Source of the DNA: Prolixibacteraceae bacterium
Lineage (GTDB): Bacteria > Bacteroidota > Bacteroidia > Bacteroidales > Prolixibacteraceae
Assembly: GCA_019459525.1 (NCBI GenBank)
Contig: JAIBEY010000027.1
Location: forward strand, 62,001-126,000
DNA: 64,000 nucleotides
Direction of reading: 5' to 3'
Below, piece after piece: positions 8,449 to 48,904 of the stretch. Positions within the stretch are counted from its first letter, which is position 1; each line of letters opens with the position of its first letter. Under the pieces are notes generated by a model. That model searched no databases, had not been told where the DNA came from, and saw only the letters and a list, made by a program, of their open reading frames with translations. The translations under genes and the position numbers were made by a program.

Positions 8449-10203
8449 TTATTTTACAATTTCTTTGAATTTAGCTTCTTCGAAATATTTTGCAAATTCC
8501 ATATCGGTTGCTGCAATCTTTTTCAATTCAGGTTTAATTTTAATTGCTGCAGCCAGGCTTTCGTACATCAGGTTTTCTTTGGCTGTACGTGCTCCAACAA
8601 CTGCTTTGAAGTATTCTTTCCAGTAGCAACCTTCCCAGGTGCAGCCTTCCAACGATTTTAATGCGCCATTGTTGTCGCCGGCCAAAATTTTAGCTAAGCC
8701 AGTGTTTGGAGAATCGCTGTCGCCCAAATATTTAACTGCTTTGTTGTAATCACCTTTGATGATACTTAAAATACCCAAGTTATTGTTTACAGCATCGCCA
8801 GCGCCAGAAGCAGCACCAAAGTATGTTTCAGCTTTAGCTAAATCGCCTTCTTTCAAAGCGCAAACGCCCAGATTGTTTTTAATGATTGGCTCATTGTTAT
8901 TCAGTTTTTCAGCTTTTTCGAACAAGCTTTTAGCATCGGCAGCTTTTTGTTGTTTTACCAAAACCATACCGGCATTGTTGTAACCTCTCCAGTCGTTCGA
9001 ATAAATTTTCATGAACGAATTGTAGATGGCCAGTTGTTTATTCAGGTCCTTGGTTAAAGTAGCAGCGTAAAGTAATTCTGCAGGGTTCAGTTTCGAAGGA
9101 TCAGAATCAGCAAGGGCGGCAATTTCTTCGTCAGATTTACCAATCAGTTCGATGCTGGTAGTGAATTTTGAACGACGTAATTGTGGTAAAATTTCGCTGG
9201 CAACTCCGGTGAAGGCGTTTGACAGATTTTTGATTTCGCGTTCACGAACTTCAGGATCGGTGTACATAGAAAGTACGCGTAAGATTAATTCTTTATCCTG
9301 AATGTTTGATTTGCTCATCATTTCTTTGAAGCCATCCCAGTCTTCCGGTGTGAATTTTGTTTTGAATTCGGCCTCAACTTCGGCTTTTTTCAATTCTTTA
9401 GTCAGGAATTTTGAAGAAGCATTCTGACGTTGTTCAGCAAGTTTTGTATTTAATTCCAAAGCTCCGTCTGGTGAAGCATAAGAAGAAACTTCCATACTTG
9501 TGATCTTTTTCTTTGGATCAGAAGCAGCAGCTTTGTTATACTCATTCAGTTTTGCAATTTCGTCTTTAGTCAACTCTTCTTTGCGAATTTCTGATTTGTT
9601 GATCAGGTATTTAATGTCAGCAGTATATTCATCAGGAACAATGCGTTGGAAAGCATCGATGTTTGGATCGTATTTTCCAGTTGTGTTTTTTTCGCGTTGA
9701 ACGCCAATAATTGGAGTTGGATAGTTCACAACTAAAGTTGGTGTAGCAATAACACCCTTAGCCAGGCTGATTGGGGCAAAGTCAACGCTTTTTGCGCCTT
9801 GTGATGCAGTAATACGAAGTTCAAGGTCGGATAAACGCATGGCTTCAGCATAAGGAACAGCATCTTTGTAGGCAAAACTTCCACCATTAGCCAAAGTAAT
9901 TACTTTGTTGTTGGCTTTTACTTTTTGTCCCTGAAGCGTTACTGGTTCAAACGCTTTTTCTCCTCCTTCGTATTTCAACACAGGAGTTGCAACCAGAATA
10001 GCTTTTTTAGCAAAATATTTGGAAGGGAATCTTCCGTCAATAGCTAAATCAACTTTACCTGCATGTGTTTCAAGTACTTCAGGAGTTGTTTTAAAGCTAA
10101 TTTTGTTTGCGTTCTTTTTCATCTTCTGCAAACTAGCACAGCTGGATAATAATACAGCTGCCAATACAAATAAGGCAAGTGGTTTTAAGTTAATTCTTCT
10201 CAT
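8449..10203 (-). CDS. TPR-repeat lipoprotein, outer-membrane/periplasmic
   Basis: 584-aa lipoprotein. The signal peptide ends in the lipobox LLSSC, with C22 as the lipidation site. Residues about 30-190 are beta-rich. Residues about 190-350 are charged and contain MEVSSYASPDGALELNTKLA followed by AEQRQNASSKFL, reminiscent of the OmpA-like peptidoglycan-binding helix region. From about residue 365 to the end there are helical pairs typical of tetratricopeptide repeats (LYNSFMKIYSNDWRGYNNAG-type and INNLGVCALKEGDLAKAETY-type units). Such proteins are common scaffolds in the Bacteroidota envelope. No enzyme function is apparent. It is monocistronic, with its own terminator. The specific role is unknown. 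Confidence 0.8.
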   Translation of the reverse strand: MRRINLKPLALFVLAAVLLSSCASLQKMKKNANKISFKTTPEVLETHAGKVDLAIDGRFPSKYFAKKAILVATPVLKYEGGEKAFEPVTLQGQKVKANNKVITLANGGSFAYKDAVPYAEAMRLSDLELRITASQGAKSVDFAPISLAKGVIATPTLVVNYPTPIIGVQREKNTTGKYDPNIDAFQRIVPDEYTADIKYLINKSEIRKEELTKDEIAKLNEYNKAAASDPKKKITSMEVSSYASPDGALELNTKLAEQRQNASSKFLTKELKKAEVEAEFKTKFTPEDWDGFKEMMSKSNIQDKELILRVLSMYTDPEVREREIKNLSNAFTGVASEILPQLRRSKFTTSIELIGKSDEEIAALADSDPSKLNPAELLYAATLTKDLNKQLAIYNSFMKIYSNDWRGYNNAGMVLVKQQKAADAKSLFEKAEKLNNNEPIIKNNLGVCALKEGDLAKAETYFGAASGAGDAVNNNLGILSIIKGDYNKAVKYLGDSDSPNTGLAKILAGDNNGALKSLEGCTWEGCYWKEYFKAVVGARTAKENLMYESLAAAIKIKPELKKIAATDMEFAKYFEEAKFKEIVK

Positions 10204-10312
10204 AGTGCGTATATTTAATTGATAGTGTTAAATCTTCATATAACGAGCCCAAAATTAGCAATATTTTTCCTTATCTCATAGTTAAAATTCGCTTTTACTG
10301 ATTGAATTTTAG

Positions 10313-10945
10313 CTACAGAACCCTGTTTATTCCATTGCTATACGGCCTTCCAAATATGGTTTGAACAATTTTTTCGAAATCTTCGGGCTTGTTAACAAAA
10401 TCTATACCGTTTGTGTCCAGAATGAGTATTGGAAAATCACTCTGTTGTTTAAAATAGCTGAAATAGCCCTGAGTAATTTTCTCCAGATACTGTTTGGTGA
10501 TGTGAGTTTCGTAATTTCTACCCCTGATGGCAATATTTTTCAGCAAGAGGTTGGGTTCTTTGTGCAAGTACACATACAAATCGGGCTTTGGCATTTTGTC
10601 GTATATGATGGTGAAAAATTGCCTGTATAAATTGTATTCGTCAGGTTTCAACGTGTTCTGCGCAAAAATGAGCGACTTCATGAAATAGTAATCCGATATG
10701 GTAAATGGGCTGAACAGGTCGAAATGACTCAGTTCGCGGTTAAGCTGGTTGTAGCGCTCGGCTAAAAAAGCCATTTCAAGCGGGAAAGAATACTGTTCCT
10801 GGTTTTCGTAGAATTTGGGCAGGAACGGATTGTCGGCAAATTGCTCCAAAACGAGTTTCGCCTGATATTTTTTGCTGATCATCTGCGCCAGCGTGGTCTT
10901 TCCTGCACCAATGTTTCCTTCTATTACCAAATAGTTTAAGCTCAT
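10313..10945 (-). CDS. Deoxynucleoside kinase (dAdo/dGuo kinase type)
   Basis: 210-aa member of the deoxynucleoside kinase family (PF01712), phosphorylating salvaged deoxynucleosides with ATP. The Walker A loop is GNIGAGKTT at residues 10-18. The substrate-site region follows with LEQF and FAERYNQLNREL-like segments. The family signature DYYFMKSLIFAQ and the LID arginines in IAIRGRNYE are present. The length is typical. The position is between two unrelated minus-strand genes, with a terminator upstream that belongs to the prolyl oligopeptidase gene, so it probably has its own promoter. The base specificity cannot be told from sequence alone. Confidence 0.92.
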   Translation of the reverse strand: MSLNYLVIEGNIGAGKTTLAQMISKKYQAKLVLEQFADNPFLPKFYENQEQYSFPLEMAFLAERYNQLNRELSHFDLFSPFTISDYYFMKSLIFAQNTLKPDEYNLYRQFFTIIYDKMPKPDLYVYLHKEPNLLLKNIAIRGRNYETHITKQYLEKITQGYFSYFKQQSDFPILILDTNGIDFVNKPEDFEKIVQTIFGRPYSNGINRVL

Positions 10946-13590: not shown

Positions 13591-15867
13591 TTAATTCCGG
13601 TCGCGGTTGTCACGACGGTCGCCACCACGATTATCGCGGCGATCACCACCCCGATTGTCACGACGGTCGCCGCCACCACGGTTGTCATCACGGCGAGGTC
13701 TGTCGTCGTTGCTACGTTCCGGACGGTCTGGCATTCCTTCGGGTTTTGGAAGCAATACCCGACGAGATAATTTCATCTTGCCGTCACGGTCCATATCCAA
13801 AAGTTTTACCTCAATTTCCTGACCTTCCTGAAGTTCTTCTTCTACCGTTTGTAAACGATTCCAGCTAATTTCAGAAATATGCAGCAAACCTTCTTTTCCC
13901 GGCATAATTTCAACAAAGGCACCAAACGAGGTGATCGATTTTACTTTTCCCTTGTAGATTTCACCTTTTTCAGGAACAGCTACAATCAGTTTAATGCGAC
14001 GAATGGCAGCATCAAGCGATTCGCGGTTGGTACTCGAAATCTGTACATAGCCGATATCGTCTTTTTCTTCGATCGAAATAACCGTCTTGGTTTCTTCCTG
14101 AAGTTTCTGGATGTTTTTTCCGCCAGGGCCAATGATTGGTCCGATGAATTCTTTTGGAACCTGGATGACTTCAACGCGTGGAACGTTTGGTTTGTAATCT
14201 TCGCGTGGTTCCGAAATTACTTTCAGGATTTCGCCCAGGATGTGTTCGCGGCCCTGTTTGGCCTGAAGCAATGCCTGAGTCAATATTTCGTATGAAAGTC
14301 CGCCAACTTTAATGTCCATCTGGGTAGCGGTGATACCTTTTACAGTTCCGGTTACCTTGAAGTCCATGTCGCCCAGATGATCTTCGTCACCCAGAATATC
14401 TGAAAGTACAGCAAATTTATTGTTTGCAGGATCGGTAATTAAACCCATTGCGATACCAGAAACCGGACGTTTCATTTTAACACCGGCATCCAACATACAC
14501 ATGGTTCCGGCACAAACCGTAGCCATCGACGATGATCCGTTTGATTCCAGAATGTCAGAAACAACGCGAACAACGTATGGGAAATCATCCGGAATCATTT
14601 TTTTCAAGGCACGCAAGGCCAGGTTTCCGTGACCAATTTCGCGACGGCCAACTCCGCGTGGCACTTTGGCTTCTCCAACCGAGAATGGAGGGAAGTTGTA
14701 ATGCAGCAGGAATTTTTCGACTCCCTGGTAGGTAACGCTGTCGATTTTCTTTTCGTCCATTTTCGTTCCCAATGTAATGGAAGAAAGCGACTGCGTTTCA
14801 CCACGGGTGAAAATAGCTGATCCGTGTGATCCCGGCAAATAATCTACCTCGCCCCAAATTGGACGAATCTGAGTGGTTGTACGACCATCCAGACGGATAC
14901 CTTCGTCGAGAATCATGCGGCGCATGGCTTCTTTTTCCACATCGTGGTAATATTTTTTAATCAGCTTAATGTTTGTTCCGAGATCGATTTCGGTATTTTC
15001 AGCATTAGCCTCTTTGTAAGCAGTGATATATTCTTCAACGATGGCATGAAATCCTTCGATACGAAGTGCTTTGTCGTTGAGGCGTTGAGTCGCCAGCTTA
15101 TAGCAAGCAGGATAAAGATCTTCGAAAACTTTCGCTTTCAGATCGGCATCGTTTACTTCGTGGCAATAGGTCCGTTTTGTTTTTCCAACCAAAGCAGCTA
15201 ATTCTTCCTGCGCTTTGCAATGGATTTTGATGGCATCGTGAGCTACTTTAATGGCTTCGAGCATTACTTCTTCAGAAACCTCGTCCATTTCGCCTTCTAC
15301 CATCATGATGTTGTCGTACGAAGCACCAACCATAATGTCCAAATCAGCTTTTTTAAGCTGCGAAAGGGTAGGGTTCACAATCATTTTCCCATCGACACGG
15401 GCAACGCGAACTTCAGAAATAGGTGTTTCGAAAGGCACATCCGACACAGCAATAGCAGCAGAAGCGGCAAGTCCGGCCAACGAATCAGCCATTACTTCCG
15501 AATCCGATGAAATGAGCGAGATCATCATCGCCGTTTCAGCATGGAAATCGGCAGGGAATAACGGACGCAAAGCGCGATCTACTAAACGGCCAATCAGAAC
15601 TTCTTCGTCGGAAGGACGTGATTCGCGTTTGAGGAATCCACCGGGGAAACGTCCGGCGGCGGCAAATTTTTCACGGTAATCAACAGAAAGTGGCATGAAA
15701 TCCACATCTTCTTTGGCGTCTTGTGCAGCCACAACGGTTGCCAATAACATTGTGTCACCCATTCTAACAACTACCGCACCGTCGGCCTGTTTGGCTAAAC
15801 GGCCTGTTTCAATGGTAATGGTGCGGCCATCCCCAAGGTCAATTGTTTTAATAATTGCTTGATTCAT
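13591..15867 (-). CDS. pnp: Polynucleotide phosphorylase
   Basis: 758-aa PNPase, the 3'-to-5' phosphorolytic exoribonuclease of the RNA degradosome. It has two RNase PH-like domains (about residues 5-225 and 320-550), with the alpha-helical linker between them. A KH domain around [18 protein letters not shown] is followed by an S1 domain with [20 protein letters not shown]. The tail carries an Arg/Asp/Gly-rich extension with GGDRRDNR units, which enterobacterial PNPase lacks; it probably binds RNA or partner proteins. The gene lies 174 bp downstream of rpsO, the conserved arrangement. The many ORFs on the opposite strand are shadows. Confidence 0.98.
13594..13680 (-). repeat. 24-bp imperfect tandem repeat encoding the PNPase tail
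   Basis: The last 29 codons of pnp are built from about three 24-bp units encoding GGDRRDNR, ending in a partial unit. Copies differ by a few bases. Such repeats are prone to slippage, so the tail length may vary between strains. Confidence 0.8.
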
Positions 15868-16004
15868 AATTTTTCAAATAAATAAAATTTCTACAAGGTA
15901 CTACAAATGGGCGTGGTGGGGTATTTTATTCAGAAAAACGAGTTTGCTGAAGGTTGCCGTTAAAACATGGTACCTGCATATTTTAATAGGGCGTATAAAA
16001 ATAA

Positions 16005-16032
16005 GAAAAGGCAATAAAAATATTGCCTTTTC
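16005..16032 (-). terminator. Intrinsic terminator of rpsO
   Basis: Twelve-bp perfect stem (GAAAAGGCAATA, 16005-16016, with TATTGCCTTTTC, 16021-16032) and an AAAA loop. It is 10 bp after the rpsO stop and separates rpsO from pnp, so some pnp transcription may arise from its own promoter or from read-through. Confidence 0.85.
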
Positions 16033-16041
16033 AGTGATAAA

Positions 16042-16311
16042 TTATCGACGTAAGTTAAGGTCTTTGATAATTGCACGGTAACGGTTGATGTCTTTTTTCT
16101 TTAAATAATCTAAAAGACTACGACGTTTACCTACTAAGGTGATCAAGGCACGTTGTGTGCTAAAATCTTTTTTGTTTGTTTTCAGGTGATCGGTCAGGTG
16201 ATTGATGCGGAATGAAAACAATGCAATCTGAGCTTCTGACGATCCGGTGTTTGTTGCTGATTCTCCGTATTTTTCGAAGAATTCAATTTTCTTTTCAGGT
16301 GATAAATACAT
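16042..16311 (-). CDS. rpsO: 30S ribosomal protein S15
   Basis: 89-aa ribosomal protein uS15, which binds 16S rRNA and nucleates assembly of the central domain. Length and conserved blocks are standard: GSSEAQIALFSFRINHLTDH, and LVGKRRSLLDYLKKKD with the LIGKRRRLLDYL-type rRNA-binding motif. It lies directly upstream of pnp on the same strand, as in most bacteria. Confidence 0.98.
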   Translation of the reverse strand: MYLSPEKKIEFFEKYGESATNTGSSEAQIALFSFRINHLTDHLKTNKKDFSTQRALITLVGKRRSLLDYLKKKDINRYRAIIKDLNLRR

Positions 16312-38010: not shown

Positions 38011-38216
38011 ATATACGTTCGCTGTATTTTGTTTAGATAGTTTACAAGTAGTCCCCGTGATATATTTTATTGAACTGACTTTAGATTAAGTATTTGTTAA
38101 AGCCATAACCTCATTTTTTTTGTTTTACTTATTGACCAGTTTTAAAACTAAATTTATAGAATGGAAAGAAATTTGGTTTAAAGGGTTGTTTATAGGTTAA
38201 AGCTAAATAGAAAATT

Positions 38217-39584
38217 ATGGGTTATCGTTGTTCGATTCATAGCCGGAATTATGTTTTCGCCGATTTAAAGATGCTGCTGGCAAAGGCAACTCCTTTCAGG
38301 AGTGGTGATGCGTTAGCCGGGGTTGCTGCCGAAAGCAATGAGGAGCGGGTTGCGGCACAAATGGCGCTCAGTGATGTTCCCCTGAAAAATTTCCTGAACG
38401 AGGTGCTTATTCCTTATGAAAACGATGAAATAACCCGCCTGATTATTGACAGTCACGACAGTGAAGCATTTAAATCCGTGTCGCATTTTACTGTCGGCGA
38501 GTTGCGCGACTGGCTTTTGACCGAAGCTGCAAGTACCGAAACTCTCCGGAAACTGGCACCGGGCCTTACTCCTGAAATGGTTGCCGCGACATCAAAACTG
38601 ATGCGGAACCAGGATTTGATCAAGGTTGCCCAAAAATGTGAAGTGGTGAGTAAGTTCCGGGGAACCATCGGGCTTCCGGGCAGGCTCTCTGTACGGTTGC
38701 AGCCGAATAGTCCGGTTGACGATTCGCGTGCGATTGCCGCCAGCTTAATTGATGGGCTGATGTATGGCTGTGGCGATGCTGTGCTGGGAATTAATCCGGC
38801 CACCGACAGCCCGGAGATTGTTGCCGAATTGCTGAAAATGCTGGATCATGTCCGGCTGAAATTTGATATTCCAACCCAATCGTGTGTACTTTGCCATGTA
38901 ACCACTGCCCTGAAGATCATCCATAAAGCGCCTGTCGATCTGGTGTTTCAGTCGATTGGGGGAACCGAGAAAACCAATGCCTCCTTTGGCATTAACTTAT
39001 CTGTCCTTCAGGAAGCTTGGGAGGCCGCCAGTTCGCTAAACCGTGGAACGGTTGGAAATCAGGTGATGTATTTTGAAACCGGACAGGGATCGGCCTTGTC
39101 GGCAAACGCAAATTTTGGGGTCGATCAGCAAACCTGCGAAGTCCGTGCTTACGCTGTTGCCCGTAAATTCAATCCATTTCTGGTTAATACGGTTGTTGGT
39201 TTTATCGGGCCCGAATATTTGTACGATGGGAAACAGATTATCCGCGCGGCGCTTGAAGATCATTTTTGTGCTAAATTGCTTGGACTGCCGATGGGTACAG
39301 ACATTTGTTATACCAATCATGCCGAAGCCGACCAGGACGATATGGACAACCTGTTAACTTTATTGGGTGTTGCTGGAGTCAATTTTATAATGGGCGTTCC
39401 GGGAGCTGATGATATTATGCTTAACTATCAATCGACCTCGTTTCACGATGCCATGTATATCCGTAAAGTGCTAAACAAAAAACCGGCACCCGAGTTTGAG
39501 CAATGGCTGCTGTCGTCGGGTATTGTTGACGAGCGTGGCAACCGACTGCCCATTAGTGGATCACATAAATTGTTGAGCGTATGA
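38217..39584 (+). CDS. eutB: Ethanolamine ammonia-lyase large subunit
   Basis: 455-aa EutB, the TIM-barrel large subunit of adenosylcobalamin-dependent ethanolamine ammonia-lyase, converting ethanolamine to acetaldehyde and ammonia. It follows the known enterobacterial protein along its whole length: RSGDALAGVAAES near the N-terminus, ETGQGSALSANANFG, NTVVGFIGPEYLYDGKQIIR, CYTNHAEADQDD and DDIMLNYQSTSFHD. The substrate- and radical-handling region appears intact. The stop overlaps the eutC start by 4 bp (ATGA). No EutA reactivase, EutE/EutG or microcompartment shell gene is nearby, and no cobalamin riboswitch was recognised in the 200-bp leader. Confidence 0.97.
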   Translation: MGYRCSIHSRNYVFADLKMLLAKATPFRSGDALAGVAAESNEERVAAQMALSDVPLKNFLNEVLIPYENDEITRLIIDSHDSEAFKSVSHFTVGELRDWLLTEAASTETLRKLAPGLTPEMVAATSKLMRNQDLIKVAQKCEVVSKFRGTIGLPGRLSVRLQPNSPVDDSRAIAASLIDGLMYGCGDAVLGINPATDSPEIVAELLKMLDHVRLKFDIPTQSCVLCHVTTALKIIHKAPVDLVFQSIGGTEKTNASFGINLSVLQEAWEAASSLNRGTVGNQVMYFETGQGSALSANANFGVDQQTCEVRAYAVARKFNPFLVNTVVGFIGPEYLYDGKQIIRAALEDHFCAKLLGLPMGTDICYTNHAEADQDDMDNLLTLLGVAGVNFIMGVPGADDIMLNYQSTSFHDAMYIRKVLNKKPAPEFEQWLLSSGIVDERGNRLPISGSHKLLSV

Positions 39585-40375
39585 GTACAGATAAACCTGT
39601 TTCCGTTGGTGCTTCAGTTATTCAAGAGGATACGTGGATTGGCCTGAAGAATTTTACAAAGGCACGCATTGCTTTGGGAAATGTTGGTGGAAGCCTTCCA
39701 TTGCGGGAAGTCCTGGCATTAAAACTGGCTCACGCCGGAGCTAAAGATGCGATATATTCGGGGCTGGATGTGGATGGCTTGCGGGAACAATTGTCCGGGT
39801 TGCAGGTTCCTGTTTTCTGCCTGAGCAGCCGGGTTGAAGATCGTATGCAATATCTGAAAAGACCAGATCTCGGGCGCCGGCTAAACGAACAGTCTGTTGT
39901 GAGCCTGAAAGAAACCGGGCAAACCTTTGATCTGGTTTTTGTGGTTGCTGACGGGCTTTCGGCTGAGGCAGTTAATCTTCATGCCAGTGAAGTGCTGAAG
40001 CTCGTTATTCCTGAATTGGCATCCCACTATAAAATTGCAGTGGCATTGGTTAGCCAGGGGCGTGTTGCTGTTGGCGACGAAATCGGGGAATTGCTTAATG
40101 CCCGTTTTACTGCCGTTTTAATTGGCGAACGCCCGGGATTGTCGTCGCACGAAAGTATGGGGATTTATACCACTTATGCTCCTGAAGTTGGGTTAACCGA
40201 TGAGCGGCGCAATTGCATTTCCAATATACATCCGGATGGAATGAGTTATTGGGATGCGTTACGGATTTTATCTTACCTGATTGAGCAATCTTTCCAGCGG
40301 AAAATCAGCGGCGTTGATATTAAACTGGAACTTGACCAATTGCCTCAGGAACCGCTTTCCCGTAATTCCATTTAA
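39581..40375 (+). CDS. eutC: Ethanolamine ammonia-lyase small subunit
   Basis: 264-aa EutC, which with EutB forms the coenzyme B12-binding interface. Family segments include KNFTKARIALGNVGGSLPLR, the LKLAHAGAKDAIYSGLD block, VALVSQGRVAVGDEIGELL, FTAVLIGERPGLSSHESMGI and TDERRNCISNIHPDGM. It is shorter than the E. coli protein (about 295 aa), mostly at the N-terminus. The 3' end overlaps the convergent MFS transporter gene by 56 bp (40320-40375), so the last codons of both are read from the same DNA on opposite strands. Confidence 0.96.
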   Translation: MSTDKPVSVGASVIQEDTWIGLKNFTKARIALGNVGGSLPLREVLALKLAHAGAKDAIYSGLDVDGLREQLSGLQVPVFCLSSRVEDRMQYLKRPDLGRRLNEQSVVSLKETGQTFDLVFVVADGLSAEAVNLHASEVLKLVIPELASHYKIAVALVSQGRVAVGDEIGELLNARFTAVLIGERPGLSSHESMGIYTTYAPEVGLTDERRNCISNIHPDGMSYWDALRILSYLIEQSFQRKISGVDIKLELDQLPQEPLSRNSI

Positions 40376-41606
40376 ATAGAAGCAGGGCGGCAGCAATCAG
40401 CGCTACAACCACAAATAGTTCAAACAAGGCATTCCATCCATACTTGTCCGAAACGAAGGCAACTACAACAGGCGAGAATAATTGTCCGGCAGAACCTGTT
40501 CCGTTGATTACCCCGGCCGCCATGGCAGCTCCCTGGCCTTTCCCCATATCCATAGCTGCAGCTCCAGACATGATCGAATCGGGGCCATAAGTAAAAAAGC
40601 CGATCATTCCGATTGAAAGGATGGTTGGAATTATTCCCATTGAACTCAAATGCGGCTGAAGAAACAACATCAGCGCCAGTCCAAAAAGCATGATGGCTGC
40701 AATTGGAAACCGGCGGGACTGAAACAAATAATCGGAGCCAAAACCGGCAGCCAGAATGCCAAAGAATCCAATTGCCTCGTAGGCAATGGAGGTGTATCCG
40801 GCTTGTACATCTGAATATTTTAGCGCTTCCGATAAATATAAGGGTAGCCAGAACAGAAAGGCATACCGGGTGAATTTTACAAAAAAGTACATGCCAGCGG
40901 CAATCCACACAGCACTGTTTTTTAGCACAGCAAGTTGTGCCGCTTTGTCGCTTATTTTTCCGGAAGCTGAAGTGTTTTCTTCAAACGATTCCAATCCGAC
41001 ATCTTCCGGCGTATTTCGTGTGAATACGGTATAAATTAATGCAATGGCAAATACCAGGATGGAAGGCATAAAAAATGCCCGTTTCCAGGTTAGCCCCGGC
41101 AGGAAATGCGTGTCGGAAATCCAGTAAGTGGCAAATGCTGTTGCGGCAATTCCCCCAATCACATAGCAGGTTGTCCAGAATGACATTACGATTCCGCGTT
41201 CTTCTTTTTTGTACCAGGGAGTCAGGTTTTTTATCAGTCCCGACCAGCCCGACGATTGTCCCAATCCATTTAAACTCATCAGGAAAATAAATGATCCAAC
41301 GGTGCCGGCCCAACCCATAAATAAATTCGAAACCACCGCAATAAGAAGCCCGATGCCAACAACCATCCGTGCACCTTTACGGTCGCTTAGGTACCCGTTT
41401 AAAAACTGGCCCAACATATACATGATGCTGTAAACGGTAATTACAATGGCAAACTCCTCTTTCGAGGTATGCAGTTCCCTGCTCATTACAGGCATAACTA
41501 CGCTGTAGTTTTTACGGCAGAAATACATGGCAAAATAGGCTAGCCAGGTTACGGCAAATATCTGAAACCTCCATTTTTTCATTGCCGGTGAGATACTTAA
41601 TGTCAT
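40320..41606 (-). CDS. MFS transporter of the organophosphate:phosphate antiporter (OPA) type
   Basis: 428-aa, 12-helix transporter. The ATG at 41606 (MTLSISPAMKKWRFQ) is preferred to upstream in-frame ATGs, because the charged Ser/Pro-rich extension is not part of the family. OPA features are YFAMYFCRKNYSVVMPVMSR, the loop GYLSDRKGARMVVG, and FWLPLYLSEALKYSDVQAGY. OPA members carry glycerol-3-phosphate, hexose-phosphate or phosphonates. Placed beside eutBC and phnW, the likely cargo is 2-aminoethylphosphonate or a phosphorylated/ethanolamine-type amine, but sequence does not prove it. The downstream end overlaps eutC. Confidence 0.87.
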   Translation of the reverse strand: MTLSISPAMKKWRFQIFAVTWLAYFAMYFCRKNYSVVMPVMSRELHTSKEEFAIVITVYSIMYMLGQFLNGYLSDRKGARMVVGIGLLIAVVSNLFMGWAGTVGSFIFLMSLNGLGQSSGWSGLIKNLTPWYKKEERGIVMSFWTTCYVIGGIAATAFATYWISDTHFLPGLTWKRAFFMPSILVFAIALIYTVFTRNTPEDVGLESFEENTSASGKISDKAAQLAVLKNSAVWIAAGMYFFVKFTRYAFLFWLPLYLSEALKYSDVQAGYTSIAYEAIGFFGILAAGFGSDYLFQSRRFPIAAIMLFGLALMLFLQPHLSSMGIIPTILSIGMIGFFTYGPDSIMSGAAAMDMGKGQGAAMAAGVINGTGSAGQLFSPVVVAFVSDKYGWNALFELFVVVALIAAALLLFKWNYGKAVPEAIGQVPV

Positions 41607-41981
41607 CTTGGTTGTATTAAGTGTAAATCTTGTTTCGCAAAGTGTTGGAAAGGCGTTAAAATAGAGCCTTTTTGCCATCAAACATTTGTTTCGGGGGAAG
41701 TGAACAGATGAAAGCTGGCGCATGCGTTTGTTCTTTTACAAAGATGACAGAAGAAGTGATAAAAAGTTTATTTTAATTGCTATACCCCCATAAATTTAAC
41801 AAACATGTAATTTGTTTATTGGATTTTTGATATAAGGTCTTGTTTGTTTAGGGGGTATTTATGAAAAATTAATAAAAATGTATTCGATATGAAATAAAAT
41901 AAAGAAGGCAGGTATCCGGATTTTAGTTGAGCATCCGAATACCTGCCTTTGATTATTTTAGTGCTGATTTGCCTGAAGATG
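41607..41981. other. Intergenic region between phnW and the MFS transporter gene
   Basis: About 375 bp with no gene. It contains the phnW terminator (41905-41949) and, nearer the transporter, an 8-bp inverted repeat (ATACCCCC at 41782-41789, GGGGGTAT at 41851-41858). A short AACAAA...TTTGTT palindrome (41798-41816) lies between its arms. This region is upstream of the transporter start and is a plausible control region. Nothing else was recognised. Confidence 0.55.
41905..41949 (-). terminator. Intrinsic terminator of the pbfA-phnW operon
   Basis: Seventeen-nt arms (41905-41921 with 41933-41949) with one mismatch and an 11-nt loop. On the minus strand the hairpin is followed by a T-rich tract. 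It starts 33 bp beyond the phnW stop codon. Confidence 0.8.
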
Positions 41982-43097
41982 TTACCAGAATTTTATTTTC
42001 GAAATAGCTTCTGTCAGTTTCTCCATATCGTCCGGATAAACCTCCCCGATGTTTCCAATCCGGAATGTATCGCCCTGGGTTACTTTCCCGGGATAAATAA
42101 CAAATCCGTTTTGCTTTAATAAATCATAGAGTTTTTTAAAAGAATAGGCTTCGCTATTGGGAGATAGAAACGAGGTAATTATTGGCGAATGAAGTGAATC
42201 GGGCAAAAGCGGTTCAATTCCGATTTTTCGCATACCTTCCAGCAGTGTTTTCTGATTTTTAGAATAACGTTCGTAGCGCTTTTCTATTCCGCCTTCATCT
42301 TCCAGTTCGTGCAGTGCCTGCAAAAATGCACGAACCACATGGGTTGGCGAAGTAAACCTCCATTTTCCGCCACCTTTTTCCATGGTTATCCACTGGTCGT
42401 ATAAATCGAGCGAAAGCGACCGGGCCCGGCCTTTGCATTCTTCCAGTCTTTCTTTTCGGGCAATAATAAATGAAAATCCGGGGACTCCCTGAATACATTT
42501 GTTGGCCGAACTAATCAGGAAGTCGATTTGCCATTCTTTAGCATCAATCGGAATTCCGCCAAAGCTACTCATAGCATCAACGATTGTGATTTTGTTGTAT
42601 TTTTTTGCCAATGTGGTGATTTCCTTTATCGGGTTCAGAATGCCCGTCGTTGTTTCGCAATGCACAACGGCCAAGTGGGTTATGTCCGGATTTTCTTCGA
42701 GTAACTGCCTGACTTCATCGATGTCGGGAGCGTTAACTTCCGGTAAATCATAAACCAAGTGGGGAATGTTCAGGACTTGGGCAATTTGCACCATTCGGCT
42801 GCCATAAGCGCCGTTGGCTATAATCAGTAGTTTGCTGGCAGGAGCGAGGGCTGATCCCAGTACCGATTCGACCCCAAATGTTCCGCTGCCCTGTATCAGT
42901 ACCGACGAATACTCATCGAAAGCAGATGTTGCCAGCTTTACTAAGCGTTGCCGTATTTCTTGAACGATATTGAGATTGTAGTCATCGTCCCAGGTGCACC
43001 AGTCGCGGAGCATTACGGCTTTTACAGTTTTGCTTGTTGACAGCGGACCCGGAGTTAGTAACAGGTAAGGGTTGTCGGGTAATAATTTATTATCCAT
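41982..43097 (-). CDS. phnW: 2-aminoethylphosphonate:pyruvate transaminase
   Basis: 371-aa PLP enzyme (fold type I, class V aminotransferase). It converts 2-aminoethylphosphonate and pyruvate to phosphonoacetaldehyde and alanine. Signature segments are [61 protein letters not shown], the PLP lysine K200 in [14 protein letters not shown], and [17 protein letters not shown]. Length matches PhnW. It is the second gene of an operon with pbfA (48-bp gap). Together with the phosphonatase-like gene across the regulator it makes a complete 2-AEP degradation route. Confidence 0.95.
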
Positions 43098-43145
43098 TTT
43101 AGTATTGATTTTAAGTTAATTCAAGTTATTTCTGAAATCGATTGA

Positions 43146-44486
43146 TTACATCTGCTTTTGGAATGCGCCTTCCAGAATAGTAAGCGCCCGTTCAAGTTCT
43201 TCTTCGGAAATGATAAGTGGCGGACTCAGCGTAATTACATTCCCCTGAGATACTTTAAAGCTTAGGTCGTTTTGCAGGCAATGGTACATAATCCTTTCGG
43301 CTTCAGCCACGGCCCTTGCTTTGGTTCCGCGGTTGGTAACCAAATCGAGTCCCCATAAAAGACCGATGCCGCGAACATCTCCGATTATTTCATAACGATC
43401 TTTCATTTCGAGGAGCCGGGCTTGCATGATTTGGCCCAGTTTTACCGCCCTGTTTAAAAGATCTTCCTGTTCAATCACTTTTAAAACAGCCAAACTCGCG
43501 GCACTTCCAACCGGCGATTTTTCGTGGGTAAAGTGTCCGACAGAATGGTTGGCAACCACGTTGAATTTGTCGCTTGTAAGGACTGCTGCCATAGGGAAAA
43601 CACCGCCTCCCAGTCCTTTTCCTATGGTTACAATATCTGGGGTGATGCCGTAGTGTTCGAAAGCAAATAACTTTCCGGTACGCCCCATGGCAATCGGGAT
43701 CTCGTCTAAAATAAGTGTTACGTCAAATTCATCGCACAGGGCACGTACTTTTCGCCAGAACTCCTGCGCGGGGATTTGCACATCTGTATCGCGGATGGTT
43801 TCGGCAATAAGTGCCCCGACATCGCCTTCGTTTTCAAAAACCTGCCGGATTAACGCCACATACATATCCTGTTCGGGGTCGTTTTCACACAACGAACGGT
43901 ACATAACCGGTTGCGGAACGTGCTCGACCCCGGGAAGCAAGGGTCCCACATTTTTTCTGAACGGTGCCTCACCGCCAACAGAAATCGCATCGAGGCCAGC
44001 ACCATGAAACGCTCCCCACATGGAAACAACCTTGAACCGGCCCGTTGCGATCCGCGACAGTTTTAATGCTATGGAGTTGGCTTCCGATCCTCCCGGAGCA
44101 AACAAAACCCTGTTTAAACCCGGAATTTTTGAGCCAAGTTGCCTGGCAAGTTCAATAGCAGGAGGGTTGGTATATCGGCGTGGCGAAAAAGGCAGTTTAT
44201 GCAGCATTTCGGTAACGGCTTCAATTACTTTTGGGTGGCCATAACCTACCTGGTGCACGTTGTTGCCATGAAAATCAAGAATCTTTTTTCCGGTGCTTGT
44301 TACGAGGTAAGGGCCTTCACAGCCTTCTAGAATGTCCAGACAAGGGGTTGATAAGGCTTGGTGGATAAACCATTTGGCATCTTTATCGAGCTCACTGCGG
44401 GTTTCTGAAGGTAATGAATTCATCCATTTTTTGCGGCCTTCAGTTAAATTAATGTCTCCTTCAACTTTCAGAATTCTATCATCCAT
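43146..44486 (-). CDS. Class-III PLP enzyme, probable (R)-1-hydroxy-2-AEP ammonia-lyase (PbfA)
   Basis: 446-aa fold-type-I enzyme of the class-III aminotransferase family. The PLP lysine is K290 (TPDIVTIGKGLGGGVFPMA), with D261 for the pyridine nitrogen and APGGSEANSIALKLSR for the phosphate. Its position first in an operon with phnW, opposite a phosphonatase, is characteristic of PbfA, the lyase that converts (R)-1-hydroxy-2-aminoethylphosphonate to phosphonoacetaldehyde and ammonia. Close relatives also include phosphoethanolamine phospho-lyase, which gives acetaldehyde, phosphate and ammonia, and ordinary transaminases. Context favours PbfA, but sequence alone does not separate these. Confidence 0.72.
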   Translation of the reverse strand: MDDRILKVEGDINLTEGRKKWMNSLPSETRSELDKDAKWFIHQALSTPCLDILEGCEGPYLVTSTGKKILDFHGNNVHQVGYGHPKVIEAVTEMLHKLPFSPRRYTNPPAIELARQLGSKIPGLNRVLFAPGGSEANSIALKLSRIATGRFKVVSMWGAFHGAGLDAISVGGEAPFRKNVGPLLPGVEHVPQPVMYRSLCENDPEQDMYVALIRQVFENEGDVGALIAETIRDTDVQIPAQEFWRKVRALCDEFDVTLILDEIPIAMGRTGKLFAFEHYGITPDIVTIGKGLGGGVFPMAAVLTSDKFNVVANHSVGHFTHEKSPVGSAASLAVLKVIEQEDLLNRAVKLGQIMQARLLEMKDRYEIIGDVRGIGLLWGLDLVTNRGTKARAVAEAERIMYHCLQNDLSFKVSQGNVITLSPPLIISEEELERALTILEGAFQKQM

Positions 44487-44535
44487 GTTTACCTATATTA
44501 AATAAGTTGTCAATTTCGGAATAAAGATAATATTT

Positions 44536-44543
44536 CAAAAATA
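44536..44543 (-). promoter_or_regulatory. Candidate -7 element for the pbfA-phnW operon
   Basis: On the minus strand TATTTTTG matches TAnnTTTG about 50 bp upstream of the pbfA start. The -33 position would fall inside the palindrome at 44554-44590, so a protein bound there would block this promoter. Confidence 0.4.
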
Positions 44544-44553
44544 AATTTTTATA

Positions 44554-44590
44554 TCTGTTTTATTAATTAAGAATTAAATAATTAAACAGA
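44554..44590. promoter_or_regulatory. Imperfect palindrome, candidate operator between divergent phn operons
   Basis: 37-bp AT-rich imperfect palindrome with perfect ends TCTGTTT (44554-44560) and AAACAGA (44584-44590), plus matching internal ATTA/TAAT and TTAA blocks. It is centred in the 175-bp gap between pbfA and the XRE-cupin regulator gene, and overlaps or flanks the candidate -33 regions on both strands. This is the position expected for autoregulation by the adjacent regulator. Confidence 0.5.
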
Positions 44591-44614
44591 CGTGTTCAAT
44601 GTGTTATTTTAGTT

Positions 44615-44622
44615 TATATTTG
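44615..44622 (+). promoter_or_regulatory. Candidate -7 element for the regulator-phnX operon
   Basis: TATATTTG, a full TAnnTTTG match, lies 39 bp before the regulator start codon. The palindrome at 44554-44590 sits just upstream of it. Confidence 0.45.
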
Positions 44623-44661
44623 AATTTGAATTTTTAAAATATTTACTATTAGTAAACTATT

Positions 44662-45237
44662 ATGAATGGAGAGCAGGTTGTTTATATCGGAAAACGGATA
44701 AAAGAAATCAGGCAGTCAAAAGAAATAAAGCTGGTGGAACTGGCCGTTAGGGCTGGTGTAAGTAAAGGTTTGCTGTCGCGTGTGGAAAACGGGAGGACTA
44801 TCCCTTCGTTACCTGTTCTTTTTGATATCATTAGCGCGTTGGGTGAAAAGCCGGGTAGTTTTTTTGAGTCAATCGATTATTCATCCGAATCTCCTTTTTA
44901 TAAGCTTATCCGGAGGAAAGATTATCAGGCAATCGAAAAAGAAGATTCGGTGGGGTTCGATTATTTCTCTATCGTAAGCCGGTCATTCAGCGACGTCACT
45001 TTTAGTGCCGTGTTGCTTGAACTTGCCCCCAATGCCATTCGTGAAATGGTTACCACCGATGGCATGGAATTTATATACCTGGCCGAAGGTGATATCGATT
45101 ATAAGCTTGGAAATGTAACAATTACAATGGCTCAGGGCGATTCGTTGTTTTTCGACGGGCGTGTCCCTCATCTGAAGATCAACCACACGCAGCAAACGGC
45201 CCGCATACTCGTAATCTATTTGTTATTTAATAAATAA
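44662..45237 (+). CDS. XRE-family regulator with C-terminal cupin domain
   Basis: 191-aa transcription factor. The N-terminal helix-turn-helix (about residues 8-63) has IKEIRQSKEIKLVELAVRAG followed by VSKGLLSRVENGRTIPSLPV. The C-terminal cupin (about 110-185) has EFIYLAEGDIDYKLGN and ITMAQGDSLFFDGRVPHLKI, with a His for ligand or metal binding. XRE-cupin regulators such as PuuR usually repress small-molecule catabolism genes and sense the substrate through the cupin. It lies 8 bp before the phosphonatase-like gene and divergent from pbfA-phnW. It is the natural controller of both, possibly responding to an aminophosphonate or ethanolamine-type ligand (inference). Confidence 0.92.
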   Translation: MNGEQVVYIGKRIKEIRQSKEIKLVELAVRAGVSKGLLSRVENGRTIPSLPVLFDIISALGEKPGSFFESIDYSSESPFYKLIRRKDYQAIEKEDSVGFDYFSIVSRSFSDVTFSAVLLELAPNAIREMVTTDGMEFIYLAEGDIDYKLGNVTITMAQGDSLFFDGRVPHLKINHTQQTARILVIYLLFNK

Positions 45238-45245
45238 ACAATCCT

Positions 45246-45968
45246 ATGAAGCAGAACATCGAAATGGTCGTATTTGATATGGCCGGGACAACAGTTAGAG
45301 ATAAAAATGAAGTGGAATACTGTTTTCTTCAGGCAGTTGATCAAACAGGCCTGGTTACCAATCCGGATGAAATTAATTCAATGATGGGATGGTCCAAGCT
45401 TACCGTTTTTGAAACCTTGTGGAAAAAGCAGTTGTCAGGAGCCCCTGCAAGCGAAATTAATGAACGTGTAGAAAAGTCGTATTCGGCTTTCCGCGAGGTT
45501 CTCGAATCACATTACTTGAACTCCGAAATCCTTCCGACTGAAGGGACTCTCGAAATTTTTGAATTTCTGAAACGACAAAATATCAAAATTGCATTAACAA
45601 CAGGTTTTTACCGCAAAGTGACTGACATTATTCTTGAACGGCTAGGCTGGAGTGCCGGTCCGGATAAGCATGGTTCGGTGAGCGGGATAATAAATGCCTC
45701 AGTGAGCAGCGATGAGGTTAAAGCCGGACGCCCGGCGCCGTTTATGATTTTTCGTGCCATGGAGCTCTGTAATGTTAACGATGTAAGGAGGATTATTAAG
45801 ATTGGCGATACCCCGTCAGACCTGGGCGAAGGTAAAAATGCCGGATGTTACCTTTCTCTGGGTATAACCAACGGGACTCATACCAAAGAACAACTTAGCC
45901 GACTCGAAAACGATGGGCTGCTCGATGATATGAAACAATTTCAACAGTTGCTCGAAAAACTGCTTTGA
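45246..45968 (+). CDS. phnX: Phosphonatase-like HAD hydrolase, probable phosphonoacetaldehyde hydrolase
   Basis: 240-aa HAD-superfamily enzyme expected to split phosphonoacetaldehyde into acetaldehyde and phosphate. The nucleophile motif is FDMAGTTV (D11, with A13 replacing the usual second Asp, as in phosphonatases). The cap Schiff-base lysine is K51 in the MGxxK context (MMGWSKLTVF). The usual motif III lysine is replaced by R162 in GRPAPF. The metal motif is KIGDTPSDLGEGKNAG. The FDMAGTTV spelling points to the phosphonatase-like subfamily rather than textbook PhnX (FDWAGTTVDFGS). With phnW in the cluster the physiological activity is probably the same. Confidence 0.82.
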   Translation: MKQNIEMVVFDMAGTTVRDKNEVEYCFLQAVDQTGLVTNPDEINSMMGWSKLTVFETLWKKQLSGAPASEINERVEKSYSAFREVLESHYLNSEILPTEGTLEIFEFLKRQNIKIALTTGFYRKVTDIILERLGWSAGPDKHGSVSGIINASVSSDEVKAGRPAPFMIFRAMELCNVNDVRRIIKIGDTPSDLGEGKNAGCYLSLGITNGTHTKEQLSRLENDGLLDDMKQFQQLLEKLL

Positions 45969-46020
45969 ACGGATTAATTGAATTCATATTTTCCAAGCTT
46001 TGAGAATCAGGTAAAAAAAA

Positions 46021-46051
46021 CCGTAGCAAATTGTTTTGTTACGGCTTTTTT
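46021..46051 (+). terminator. Intrinsic terminator of the regulator-phnX operon
   Basis: Ten-bp stem (46021-46030 with 46035-46044, one G-U pair) with a 4-nt loop, followed by C and a T-run, 52 bp after the phnX stop codon. Confidence 0.75.
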
Positions 46052-46202
46052 AGGACTGCTTGCTAAAAGAGTTTGCCTTGTGGAAGCGAAGGTGAAACTT
46101 TAAGTGTTGATCTTTTACATCTGTTGACGAATCTGTCAGGTAAATAAAAATCACGTAACGTGTTCAACATTAATTGGCTGAGTGATTTGAATCCGTTTTT
46201 TC

Positions 46203-47903
46203 TTAATGAATTGTAATATCATGTGCTTCGCCCGAACCTCTGGGGAATCGTATGTTCTCTGTTAATTCCTGAACCTGAACTGGTGGAGGTGAAGTGACCC
46301 GGGATACCACAATTGAAACCAGAAAATTAAAAATCATACCTAAAGTTCCAATACCTTCAGGCGATATTCCAAACCAAAAGCCGTCACGAGTTCCAGGTCC
46401 GCCCAACTGCGGGGTGAAATAGAAAATATATGTCGCGGTAAATACAATTCCAACAATCATTCCTGAAATAGCTCCTTCGCGGTTCATACGTTTATCGAAA
46501 ATGCCGAGAATAATTGCCGGGAAGAACGATGAAGCCGCCAGTCCAAAAGCCAGCGCAACTACCTGGGCAACAAATCCGGGTGGATGCATTCCGGCAATTC
46601 CGGCAGCAAATACGGCAACCGCGATACTAATGCGTGCTGCCCAAAGTTCTCCTCTTTCCGAAATGTTTGGTTTTAAATTTTTCTTCAGCAAATCGTGCGA
46701 AATAGAAGTGGCTATCACCAGCAAAAGCCCTGCAGCAGTCGAAAGTGCCGCGGCAAGTCCACCAGCTACCACCAAAGCCACTACCCAGGCAGGTAAGTTG
46801 GCAATTTCCGGATTAGCCAATACCATAATGTCCTGATCTATTTTTAGTTCATTTAAATTAGGATCAGCCAGATATTGTATTTTCCCATCACCATTCTTGT
46901 CGGTAAACGCAAGCAACCCGGTGTTCTCCCAATTGGTGAACCATTGCGGAACTTCGGCGTACGGTTTTTCGGAAACCGTATTGATTAAATTGGTTCGGGC
47001 AAATGCCGCAACTGCAGGCGCGGTAGTGTATAAAAGAGCGATAAACAATAAGGCCCAGCCAGCCGAAATGCGTGCATCTTTAACCTTCGGAACTGTAAAA
47101 AAGCGAACGATAACATGAGGCAATCCGGCGGTTCCGAACATCAATGCGGCTGTAATAAACAGCATGTTCACAAGGTTCCCTTTTTTTACCGACGTATATT
47201 CAGCAAATCCTAAATCGATAGAAAGTTGATTCAATTTTTCGAGCAAATAAACTCCATCGGCAGTCTTGGCACCAAAGCCCATCTGAGGAATCGGGTTTCC
47301 GGTCATGTGAATGGAGATAAAAACAGCCGGTACTGTAAAGGCAAAAATTAATACACAATATTGCGCCACCTGTGTGTAGGTAATCCCTTTCATTCCGCCA
47401 AGCACGGCATAAAAAAATACGATACCAATACCGATCAATACGCCTGTTTCAAAAGAAACGTTTAAAAAACGGGCAAATGTTAATCCCACGCCTTTCATTT
47501 GTCCCACGACGTAGGTGAACGAAATAAAAAGGGCACAAATAAGTGCCACTAAGCGAGCCGATTTTGAATAATAACGCTCTCCGATAAAATCAGGAACAGT
47601 ATATTTTCCAAACTTTCTCAGGTATGGCGCAAGCAGTAAAGCCAGTAAAACGTAGCCACCAGTCCAGCCCATCAGGTATTGAGCCCCGCTATAACCCATA
47701 AAAGAAATCATTCCGGCCATGGATAAAAATGAAGCAGCCGACATCCAGTCGGCAGCAGTAGCCATGCCATTCAATAACGGATGTACACCGCCACCTGCAA
47801 CATAAAACTCCTGAGTTGAACCTGCCCGTGACCACGCAGCTATTCCGATGTATAAAGTAAAGGTAAAACCTACCAATATATAAGTCCAGATTTGAGCATC
47901 CAT
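46203..47903 (-). CDS. Sodium:solute symporter, large subunit (acetate-permease-like)
   Basis: 566-aa member of the sodium:solute symporter family (SSF, PF00474), with about thirteen helices. It matches the VC_2705 subfamily, which is paired with a small DUF4212 subunit. Conserved blocks include EFYVAGGGVHPLLNGMATAA, DWMSAASFLSMAG, IGERYYSKSARLVALICALF and AAALSTAAGLLLVIATSISH. A hydrophilic insertion of about 70 residues with DKNGDGKIQYLADPNLNELK lies between helices. These proteins are usually acetate or short-chain carboxylate importers. The neighbouring phn/eut genes would yield acetaldehyde and hence acetate, so the pairing is plausible but not proven. Confidence 0.92.
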   Translation of the reverse strand: MDAQIWTYILVGFTFTLYIGIAAWSRAGSTQEFYVAGGGVHPLLNGMATAADWMSAASFLSMAGMISFMGYSGAQYLMGWTGGYVLLALLLAPYLRKFGKYTVPDFIGERYYSKSARLVALICALFISFTYVVGQMKGVGLTFARFLNVSFETGVLIGIGIVFFYAVLGGMKGITYTQVAQYCVLIFAFTVPAVFISIHMTGNPIPQMGFGAKTADGVYLLEKLNQLSIDLGFAEYTSVKKGNLVNMLFITAALMFGTAGLPHVIVRFFTVPKVKDARISAGWALLFIALLYTTAPAVAAFARTNLINTVSEKPYAEVPQWFTNWENTGLLAFTDKNGDGKIQYLADPNLNELKIDQDIMVLANPEIANLPAWVVALVVAGGLAAALSTAAGLLLVIATSISHDLLKKNLKPNISERGELWAARISIAVAVFAAGIAGMHPPGFVAQVVALAFGLAASSFFPAIILGIFDKRMNREGAISGMIVGIVFTATYIFYFTPQLGGPGTRDGFWFGISPEGIGTLGMIFNFLVSIVVSRVTSPPPVQVQELTENIRFPRGSGEAHDITIH

Positions 47904-47918
47904 AAGTTTTCCTGTTAG

Positions 47919-48173
47919 TTATTTTTCGTCAACATCAAAAGCTTTGTCGAGGCGGTTCATCAGAAACACGTAAACAAAAATCAGCAAAACAAAAGCATAA
48001 ATCGATCCTTGCTGTGCAAACCAAAAGCCAAGCGGGAATCCGGCTAACTTAAACTGATTGAGGAAATCTGCCAGTAAAATTCCGGCTCCGAACGAAACTA
48101 CAAACCAAATGGAAAGAAGTATGGCCAGGTAGGTTAGATTTTTTTTCCAGTAGAGTTTTTTATAATCCGTCAT
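47919..48173 (-). CDS. Sodium:solute symporter, small subunit (DUF4212)
   Basis: 84-aa protein with two hydrophobic helices (about residues 15-34 and 50-70) and a charged C-terminus, NRLDKAFDVDEK. It matches the DUF4212/TIGR03647 family, always encoded directly before the VC_2705-type large subunit and presumed to be part of its complex. The large subunit starts 15 bp downstream. Confidence 0.92.
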   Translation of the reverse strand: MTDYKKLYWKKNLTYLAILLSIWFVVSFGAGILLADFLNQFKLAGFPLGFWFAQQGSIYAFVLLIFVYVFLMNRLDKAFDVDEK

Positions 48174-48273
48174 AGTTGTTATTTAGATTGGTTCTAAATA
48201 ATAGCAATTAAAAAGAAAAATGTGGAATTAGCAAGTGGTGGCATAAATATAAAATATGTTTTAGGAGCATGAA

Positions 48274-48847: not shown

Positions 48848-48904
48848 ATTTTCAATAAGTAAACAAATTTCAATTTTGCCGAAGCTTAAATTGTTTGTTT
48901 TTTG

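Follow-up and report, generated by a model that had tools for sequence, protein, structure and literature searches.

The 64,000-nucleotide stretch analyzed here (the window; all positions refer to it), part of the 5.54 Mb assembly of a Prolixibacteraceae bacterium (genome G000), carries at 40320-45968 what we read as a catabolic cluster for 2-aminoethylphosphonate (AEP), of the known PhnW/PbfA kind and in a variant form. In this reading, to which we give a probability of about 0.75, the flanking ethanolamine ammonia-lyase genes (eutBC) are transcribed separately, and neither eutBC nor a nearby sodium/solute symporter pair shows a tie to the AEP genes in regulation or transport. An earlier note on the same DNA had taken the whole block, at 38217-48173, as one island for the salvage of both amines; it now looks like a genuine cluster for AEP whose arrangement is new, with eutBC behaving more like a rare neighbour. 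What the analysis provides is a candidate operator that can be tested, DUF5690 as a possible family of transporters, and a division of the block into a system and a probable neighbour. AEP is described as the commonest natural phosphonate in the abstract of PMC10590968.

The open reading frames of the block include every gene named in the earlier note, eight in all, plus a ninth small one, and the family scores agree with the identities proposed there; the labels of the hydrolase, the symporter and the OPA protein need care. The genes form four strand runs, with eutBC on the plus strand, the OPA transporter, phnW and pbfA on the minus strand, the regulator and the hydrolase on the plus strand, and the symporter pair on the minus strand. 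Protein families were called from NCBIfam and Pfam profile scores, in bits, against the cut-off of each model. The phnW gene (41982..43097, minus), for AEP:pyruvate transaminase, scores 576.4 with the equivalog model TIGR02326 (cut-off 400.8), and its product aligns over nearly the full length with the solved AEP transaminases 9kk8 and 1m32. The product of pbfA (43146..44486, minus), an (R)-1-hydroxy-AEP ammonia-lyase, reaches 661 with NF049939, which exceeds the cut-off of 525 by 136 bits, the generic PRK06082 model giving 663.3. The XRE-cupin regulator (44662..45237, plus) is over the cut-offs of both HTH_3 and Cupin_2. The predicted route from AEP and hydroxy-AEP through PhnW, PbfA and a phosphonatase-like hydrolase is supported.

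According to the proposed mechanism, the OPA-family transporter would import AEP (or hydroxy-AEP), PhnW would transaminate AEP to phosphonoacetaldehyde, PbfA would produce the same compound by removing ammonia from (R)-1-hydroxy-AEP, and the PhnX-like enzyme would cleave it, through Asp11 and a Schiff base on Lys51, to acetaldehyde and phosphate. Control would lie with the XRE-cupin protein, which, probably in response to an effector, would act at two 17-bp operators on the operon that encodes it and on pbfA-phnW, transcribed divergently, and eutBC would be a complete ethanolamine ammonia-lyase with its own transcription. Acetaldehyde is the established product of both the EutBC and the AEP routes. 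The cluster shares with the phnW-phnX-pbfA AEP degradation clusters of PMC8154272 the presence of PhnW, PbfA, a hydrolase of phosphonatase fold, a transporter and a regulator in a single cluster. By contrast with those clusters, the hydrolase of the window is PhnX-like by score and not PhnX, and the window has an XRE-cupin regulator with a candidate operator, an OPA transporter and flanking eutBC genes.

The hydrolase (45246..45968, plus) is probably a phosphonoacetaldehyde hydrolase. Its best family is TIGR03351, named PhnX-like, where it stays below the cut-off (196.5 against 218.9); with the phosphonatase model TIGR01422 it scores 108.9 against a cut-off of 220, and the alignment shows a Val where PhnX has a His, which we take to be His56. 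These three points weigh against a function as phosphonoacetaldehyde hydrolase, and the two scores would fit an enzyme acting on another 2-oxo-phosphonate, or a general phosphatase, with a true PhnX encoded elsewhere handling the PhnW product. Genome G094 also goes in that direction, as there a true PhnX (TIGR01422, 314.6 bits) adjoins phnW and a separate PhnX-like protein adjoins DUF5690 and pbfA, a hint of different substrates or roles for the two; their genes lie at 9573-10388 and 15413-16165 of locus L224. We consider this alternative unlikely, because both the Asp nucleophile and the cap Lys of phosphonatases are kept in the hydrolase: D11, the Asp of the DxAGT motif, and K51 are invariant in 7 of the 7 aligned proteins, and K51 aligns with Lys53 of PhnX in an alignment that includes the K53R entry 2ioh. 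In addition, the predicted structure (predicted local distance difference test score, pLDDT, of 86) has PhnX structures as its top Foldseek matches, with other HAD proteins close behind, and in the stretches of locus L002 and genome G103 tblastn detected no other hydrolase of this type, its gene keeping company with those of PhnW and the regulator.

The regulation of the AEP genes is approached through a 17-bp inverted repeat, GTTTAC-N5-GTAAAC, present twice between pbfA and the regulator, 154 bp apart. Copy 1 (44487..44503) has two mismatches and a matrix score of 14.5, the second in the window; copy 2 (44641..44657), with one mismatch and a score of 24.1, is the top site. Among relatives with a regulator of 47% identity or more, all 13 have a site with up to two mismatches in the 300 bp upstream of that gene, a count that is not an independent test because the consensus was read by eye from several of the same regions; letter shuffles expect 0.01-0.03 such sites per region, and the L127 and L028 rows were left out of these counts as slicing artefacts at the locus ends. 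No such site was found upstream of the regulator in the five relatives below 46% identity (L024, L081, L009, L016 and L013), although in L013 the matrix still gives one of 18.5. The matrix was built from 20 sites of other genomes and replaced an earlier one in which sites with up to four mismatches, noise included, had been accepted. Against a Markov background, four sites per Mb are expected at a score of 14 and none appeared in 2 Mb at 18, so a third window site of 14.0 at 48848, adjoining tRNA-Gln, may be chance. We infer from this conservation that the repeat is the operator of the XRE-cupin regulator. A pattern search of the window's own genome found six places, the same number as the control, and is a partial test because the pattern cannot match copy 1.

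The highest matrix scores upstream of the remaining genes were 6.3 for eutB, 2.0 for the OPA gene and -2.1 for the symporter, against 24.1 and 14.5 at pbfA and the regulator. Between phnW and the OPA gene there is a 17-pair hairpin (41905..41949, minus; -33.5 kcal/mol, z -8.55), a probable terminator of pbfA-phnW, which suggests that the OPA gene is transcribed apart from these two. Promoter and terminator scans of the sequence gave 30 predictions against 20.4 (standard deviation 4.4) in shuffles, and 14 against 14.2, respectively. Weaker candidate operator sites stand directly after phnW in L002 (18.0), L004 (15.4) and L008 (17.1), where they precede a small gene and then SusC/SusD-type genes.

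The OPA-family (GlpT-like) gene (40320..41723, minus; the ATG at 41606 is perhaps the true start) overlaps eutC tail to tail by 56 bp. Its product scores 228.3 with TIGR00881, under the cut-off, and of the 25 families listed there is none whose cut-off it exceeds. In an alignment with GlpT (1pw4), inspected by eye, the arginines at Arg45 and Arg269 are kept, a Tyr aligns with His165 and a Gln with Lys80, these numbers and the roles of the residues being those we assume for GlpT. The protein belongs to the GlpT-like family and its relatives are co-located with phnW, features that make it a candidate AEP transporter of the AepP family. The AepP-type permease of PMC8316502 is likewise a GlpT-family carrier encoded beside phnW, and the counterparts of Arg45 and Arg269 are kept in our protein, which differs at His165 (Tyr) and Lys80 (Gln) of GlpT; the likeness is one of family. 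The same paper mentions AepP in a member of the Bacteroidota, Kriegella aquimaris.

Relatives were compared over wider stretches (5.9-20 kb), fetched for 17 of the 25 other phnW-bearing genomes of the family. Seven of these clusters have an OPA gene, ten have DUF5690, and none has both or neither, with distances to phnW of 1.2-1.7 kb for OPA and 1.2-5.7 kb for DUF5690; SusC and SusD matches are present in 13 of the 17. The closest phnW records come from Bacteroidales assemblies and relatives are rich in SusC/SusD-type genes, in keeping with a place of the window in Bacteroidota. DUF5690 (PF18943; for example L115:15106-16464) is a predicted membrane protein, and 14 of the 15 family genomes with it over the cut-off also have phnW (P 2e-11, the genomes not being independent). 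Its structural model has low confidence (pLDDT 63.6), with Foldseek template modelling scores of 0.31-0.43 in which OPA-family G6PT structures come first. As DUF5690 never stands alongside OPA in the 17 clusters, we propose it as a candidate AEP transporter, and this interchange near phnW is the most useful new lead of the analysis. Among open-licence papers, nothing was found on DUF5690, on AEP uptake by Bacteroidota apart from the AepP of K. aquimaris, or on phosphonoacetaldehyde hydrolase with TonB-dependent uptake in Bacteroid- taxa. The seven family OPA copies are 72-76% identical to that of the window and stand beside phnW genes of only 47-49% identity, and the phnW, pbfA, regulator and hydrolase of the window are 69-77% identical to the copies of L002, L003 and G103. 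The window cluster thus looks like a hybrid, in which a transporter of the genus type would have been joined to enzymes of another lineage.

At the other side of the OPA gene, eutB (38217..39584, plus), for the large subunit of ethanolamine ammonia-lyase, scores 711.9 with NF011649 (cut-off 554), and eutC (39581..40375, plus), for the small subunit, scores 284.8 with NF003971 (cut-off 230) and matches 3any chain B. EutB aligns over 437 residues (5-441) with 2qez, and both have the motifs RLQPN, FETGQGS and NHxxADQ, which we take to be catalytic. With both subunits over their cut-offs and encoded side by side, the prediction of a complete EutBC pair is borne out. No other eut genes of a microcompartment operon stand directly beside eutBC, the direct flanks being a 155-residue open reading frame without Pfam match and the OPA gene, and the family scan not extending to genes beyond these. 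A TIGR00908 ethanolamine permease adjoins eutB in five of seven other same-class loci fetched, which share with the window the adjacent eutB and eutC; the window block has no such permease, and its eutBC has the AEP cluster as neighbour instead. With the permease of one relative as query, the only match in the genome was 27% identical over a partial length, and it scores 69.7 with TIGR00908 against a cut-off of 381.75. No acetaldehyde-handling gene was found by family scores among the genes of the block, and a candidate acetylating acetaldehyde dehydrogenase of the genome (TIGR02518) was rejected at 43 bits against 620.1, other aldehyde dehydrogenases not having been sought. In nine genomes (L110-L113 and L169-L173) the EutB match is part of an open frame 779-813 residues long, which is probably a fusion of EutB with EutC.

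The association between eutB and phnW was measured in a family sample of 140 genomes (phnW at E-values up to 1e-60) and a class sample of 395 (phnW up to 1e-100). In the class sample, eutB is present in 17 genomes, phnW in 24 and both in one, that of the window, with 1.03 expected; when this genome is removed, none was seen among 394, with 0.93 expected. In the family, where phnW is found in 26 genomes and eutB in seven (in four cases within a frame of 793-813 residues, suggesting an EutB-EutC fusion), eutB was absent from all 17 of the other AEP stretches fetched, as was the symporter. Loci L002, L003, L004 and L006 contain the hydrolase, the regulator, pbfA, DUF5690 and phnW without eutBC, EutB was found in none of the 13 genomes behind chosen phnW loci (L002-L010 included; the completeness of these assemblies is not stated), and the order eutBC-OPA-phnW occurs in none of the relatives examined. 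Other genomes gave 264 phnW loci, and among the best 80 of them eutB is near phnW in one, a Vibrio plasmid with 9.4 kb between both genes, occupied by a chitinase, mscL and others. Plasmid records matching phnW and eutB numbered 140 and 124; among the 60 of each that were listed, five records have both genes, 9.4 kb apart in NZ_CP049914 and hundreds of kb or more apart in the other four. Literature in open-licence papers joining AEP or phosphonate, PhnW and ethanolamine ammonia-lyase or eutB was not found. In the plasmid matches, phnW is also present on NZ_OY725933 and NZ_OY725756 (Bacteroides finegoldii, Parabacteroides distasonis), which indicates that mobility of the AEP genes is possible within Bacteroidota.

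Several observations weigh against this separation of eutBC from the AEP genes. Both eutB and phnW are present in four of the 140 family genomes (G000, G088, G094 and G103), with 1.3 expected (P 0.02, the genomes not being independent), and unfused eutB together with phnW of at least 59% identity in two, with 0.17 expected (P 0.008, rising to 0.10 once the window's genome is left out). In G103, from another genus, the two genes are 22.5 kb apart on one contig, a distance with around 0.8% probability by chance. G103 is the nearest to the window in the eutB tree (support 91/93, short of the star of the tool; in this tree the gene of G539 appears two times, and G106 and L021 are fragments), and in the AEP cassette tree it groups with L003 (98) and then with the window (89). 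Furthermore, two candidate operators of G103 at L116:15428-15594, with scores of 27.0 (the highest of all scanned) and 23.2, lie before SusC/D-type genes by eutBC, a sign that the AEP regulon may include uptake across the outer membrane. In the window itself, the best site upstream of eutB (38040-38056; rank 12) has a perfect left half only. Of the refuting signs named in the earlier note, co-occurrence by chance alone holds in the class sample; in the family there is the weak excess, and with G103 as a hint to the contrary the idea stays alive.

The rival reading is a head-group salvage island, its two enzyme sets kept together because one food would supply both substrates: ethanolamine from phosphatidylethanolamine or from glycans bearing phosphoethanolamine, AEP from phosphonolipids or from glycans bearing AEP. 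The adjacency of eutBC and the AEP genes in the window, the common placement of G103 in the two trees and the excess in the family fit such an island, as does the content of the G103 region, where SusC/D-type genes lie between eutB and phnW, the strong operators stand between these and a HAD gene adjoining eutC, an alkaline phosphatase (PF00245) is encoded beyond eutBC, and a 907-residue protein adjoining phnW scores 41.6 bits with PF04185 and also has matches to beta-propellers. However, eutB is missing from the 17 other family stretches and near phnW in just one of the best 80 loci elsewhere, its overlap with phnW in the class does not surpass the expected value, no good operator precedes it in the window or in G103 (top score there 2.3, with the first matrix), and the permease common in other same-class loci is lacking beside it. 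The HAD gene of G103 is histidinol-phosphatase-like, which argues against an ethanolamine-phosphate operon. A merged salvage island is thus possible and, in our estimation, improbable; as a recurring system, one pathway for ethanolamine and AEP is not supported, and neither is the single C2-amine island of the earlier note. G103, being one genome, may reflect either the common descent of a head-group locus or a coincidence. It is also doubtful that there is a broader Bacteroidota phosphonate regulon, in which the XRE-cupin protein, acting on GTTTAC-N5-GTAAAC, would control the PhnW, PbfA and PhnX-like genes and a SusC/SusD uptake operon of the type seen in G103, L002, L004 and L008, DUF5690 would be an AEP transporter interchangeable with AepP, and a link with eutBC in G103 and the window would bring both head groups of one substrate to acetaldehyde.

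Under the preferred reading of an AEP cluster with separate neighbours, the symporter pair is probably an independent neighbour. Its large subunit (46203..47903, minus) scores 855.5 with TIGR03648 (cut-off 320.75) and the small one (47919..48173, minus) 116.4 with TIGR03647 (cut-off 26.05). The role in acetate handling that had been suggested for it is unsupported, since it scores 152.1 with the ActP model TIGR02711 against a cut-off of 1099.25. A pair with 94% (large) and 86% (small) identity exists at another place in genome G009, where neither eutB nor phnW was matched at the thresholds applied. As to how the site arose, G001 and G014 have the neighbours of the block, an O-methyltransferase on one side and a tRNA-Gln pair on the other, around a single gene of 467 residues, which a family scan of the G001 copy gives as an amino-acid permease, and the block is therefore lineage-specific; the methyltransferase neighbourhood differs in G008, G009 and G019. 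Family scans found no integrase among the genes of the block, and as att-like direct repeats its ends gave short imperfect matches only, besides the two tRNA-Gln genes (among 20 of 23 families). As evidence of transfer, the G+C content, of 48.5% in eutBC, 43.6% in the AEP part and 42.5% in the window, is no more than suggestive. At 48179-48201, upstream of the symporter genes, an inverted repeat seen by eye, TTATTTAGA-N5-TCTAAATAA, may be the operator of another regulator.

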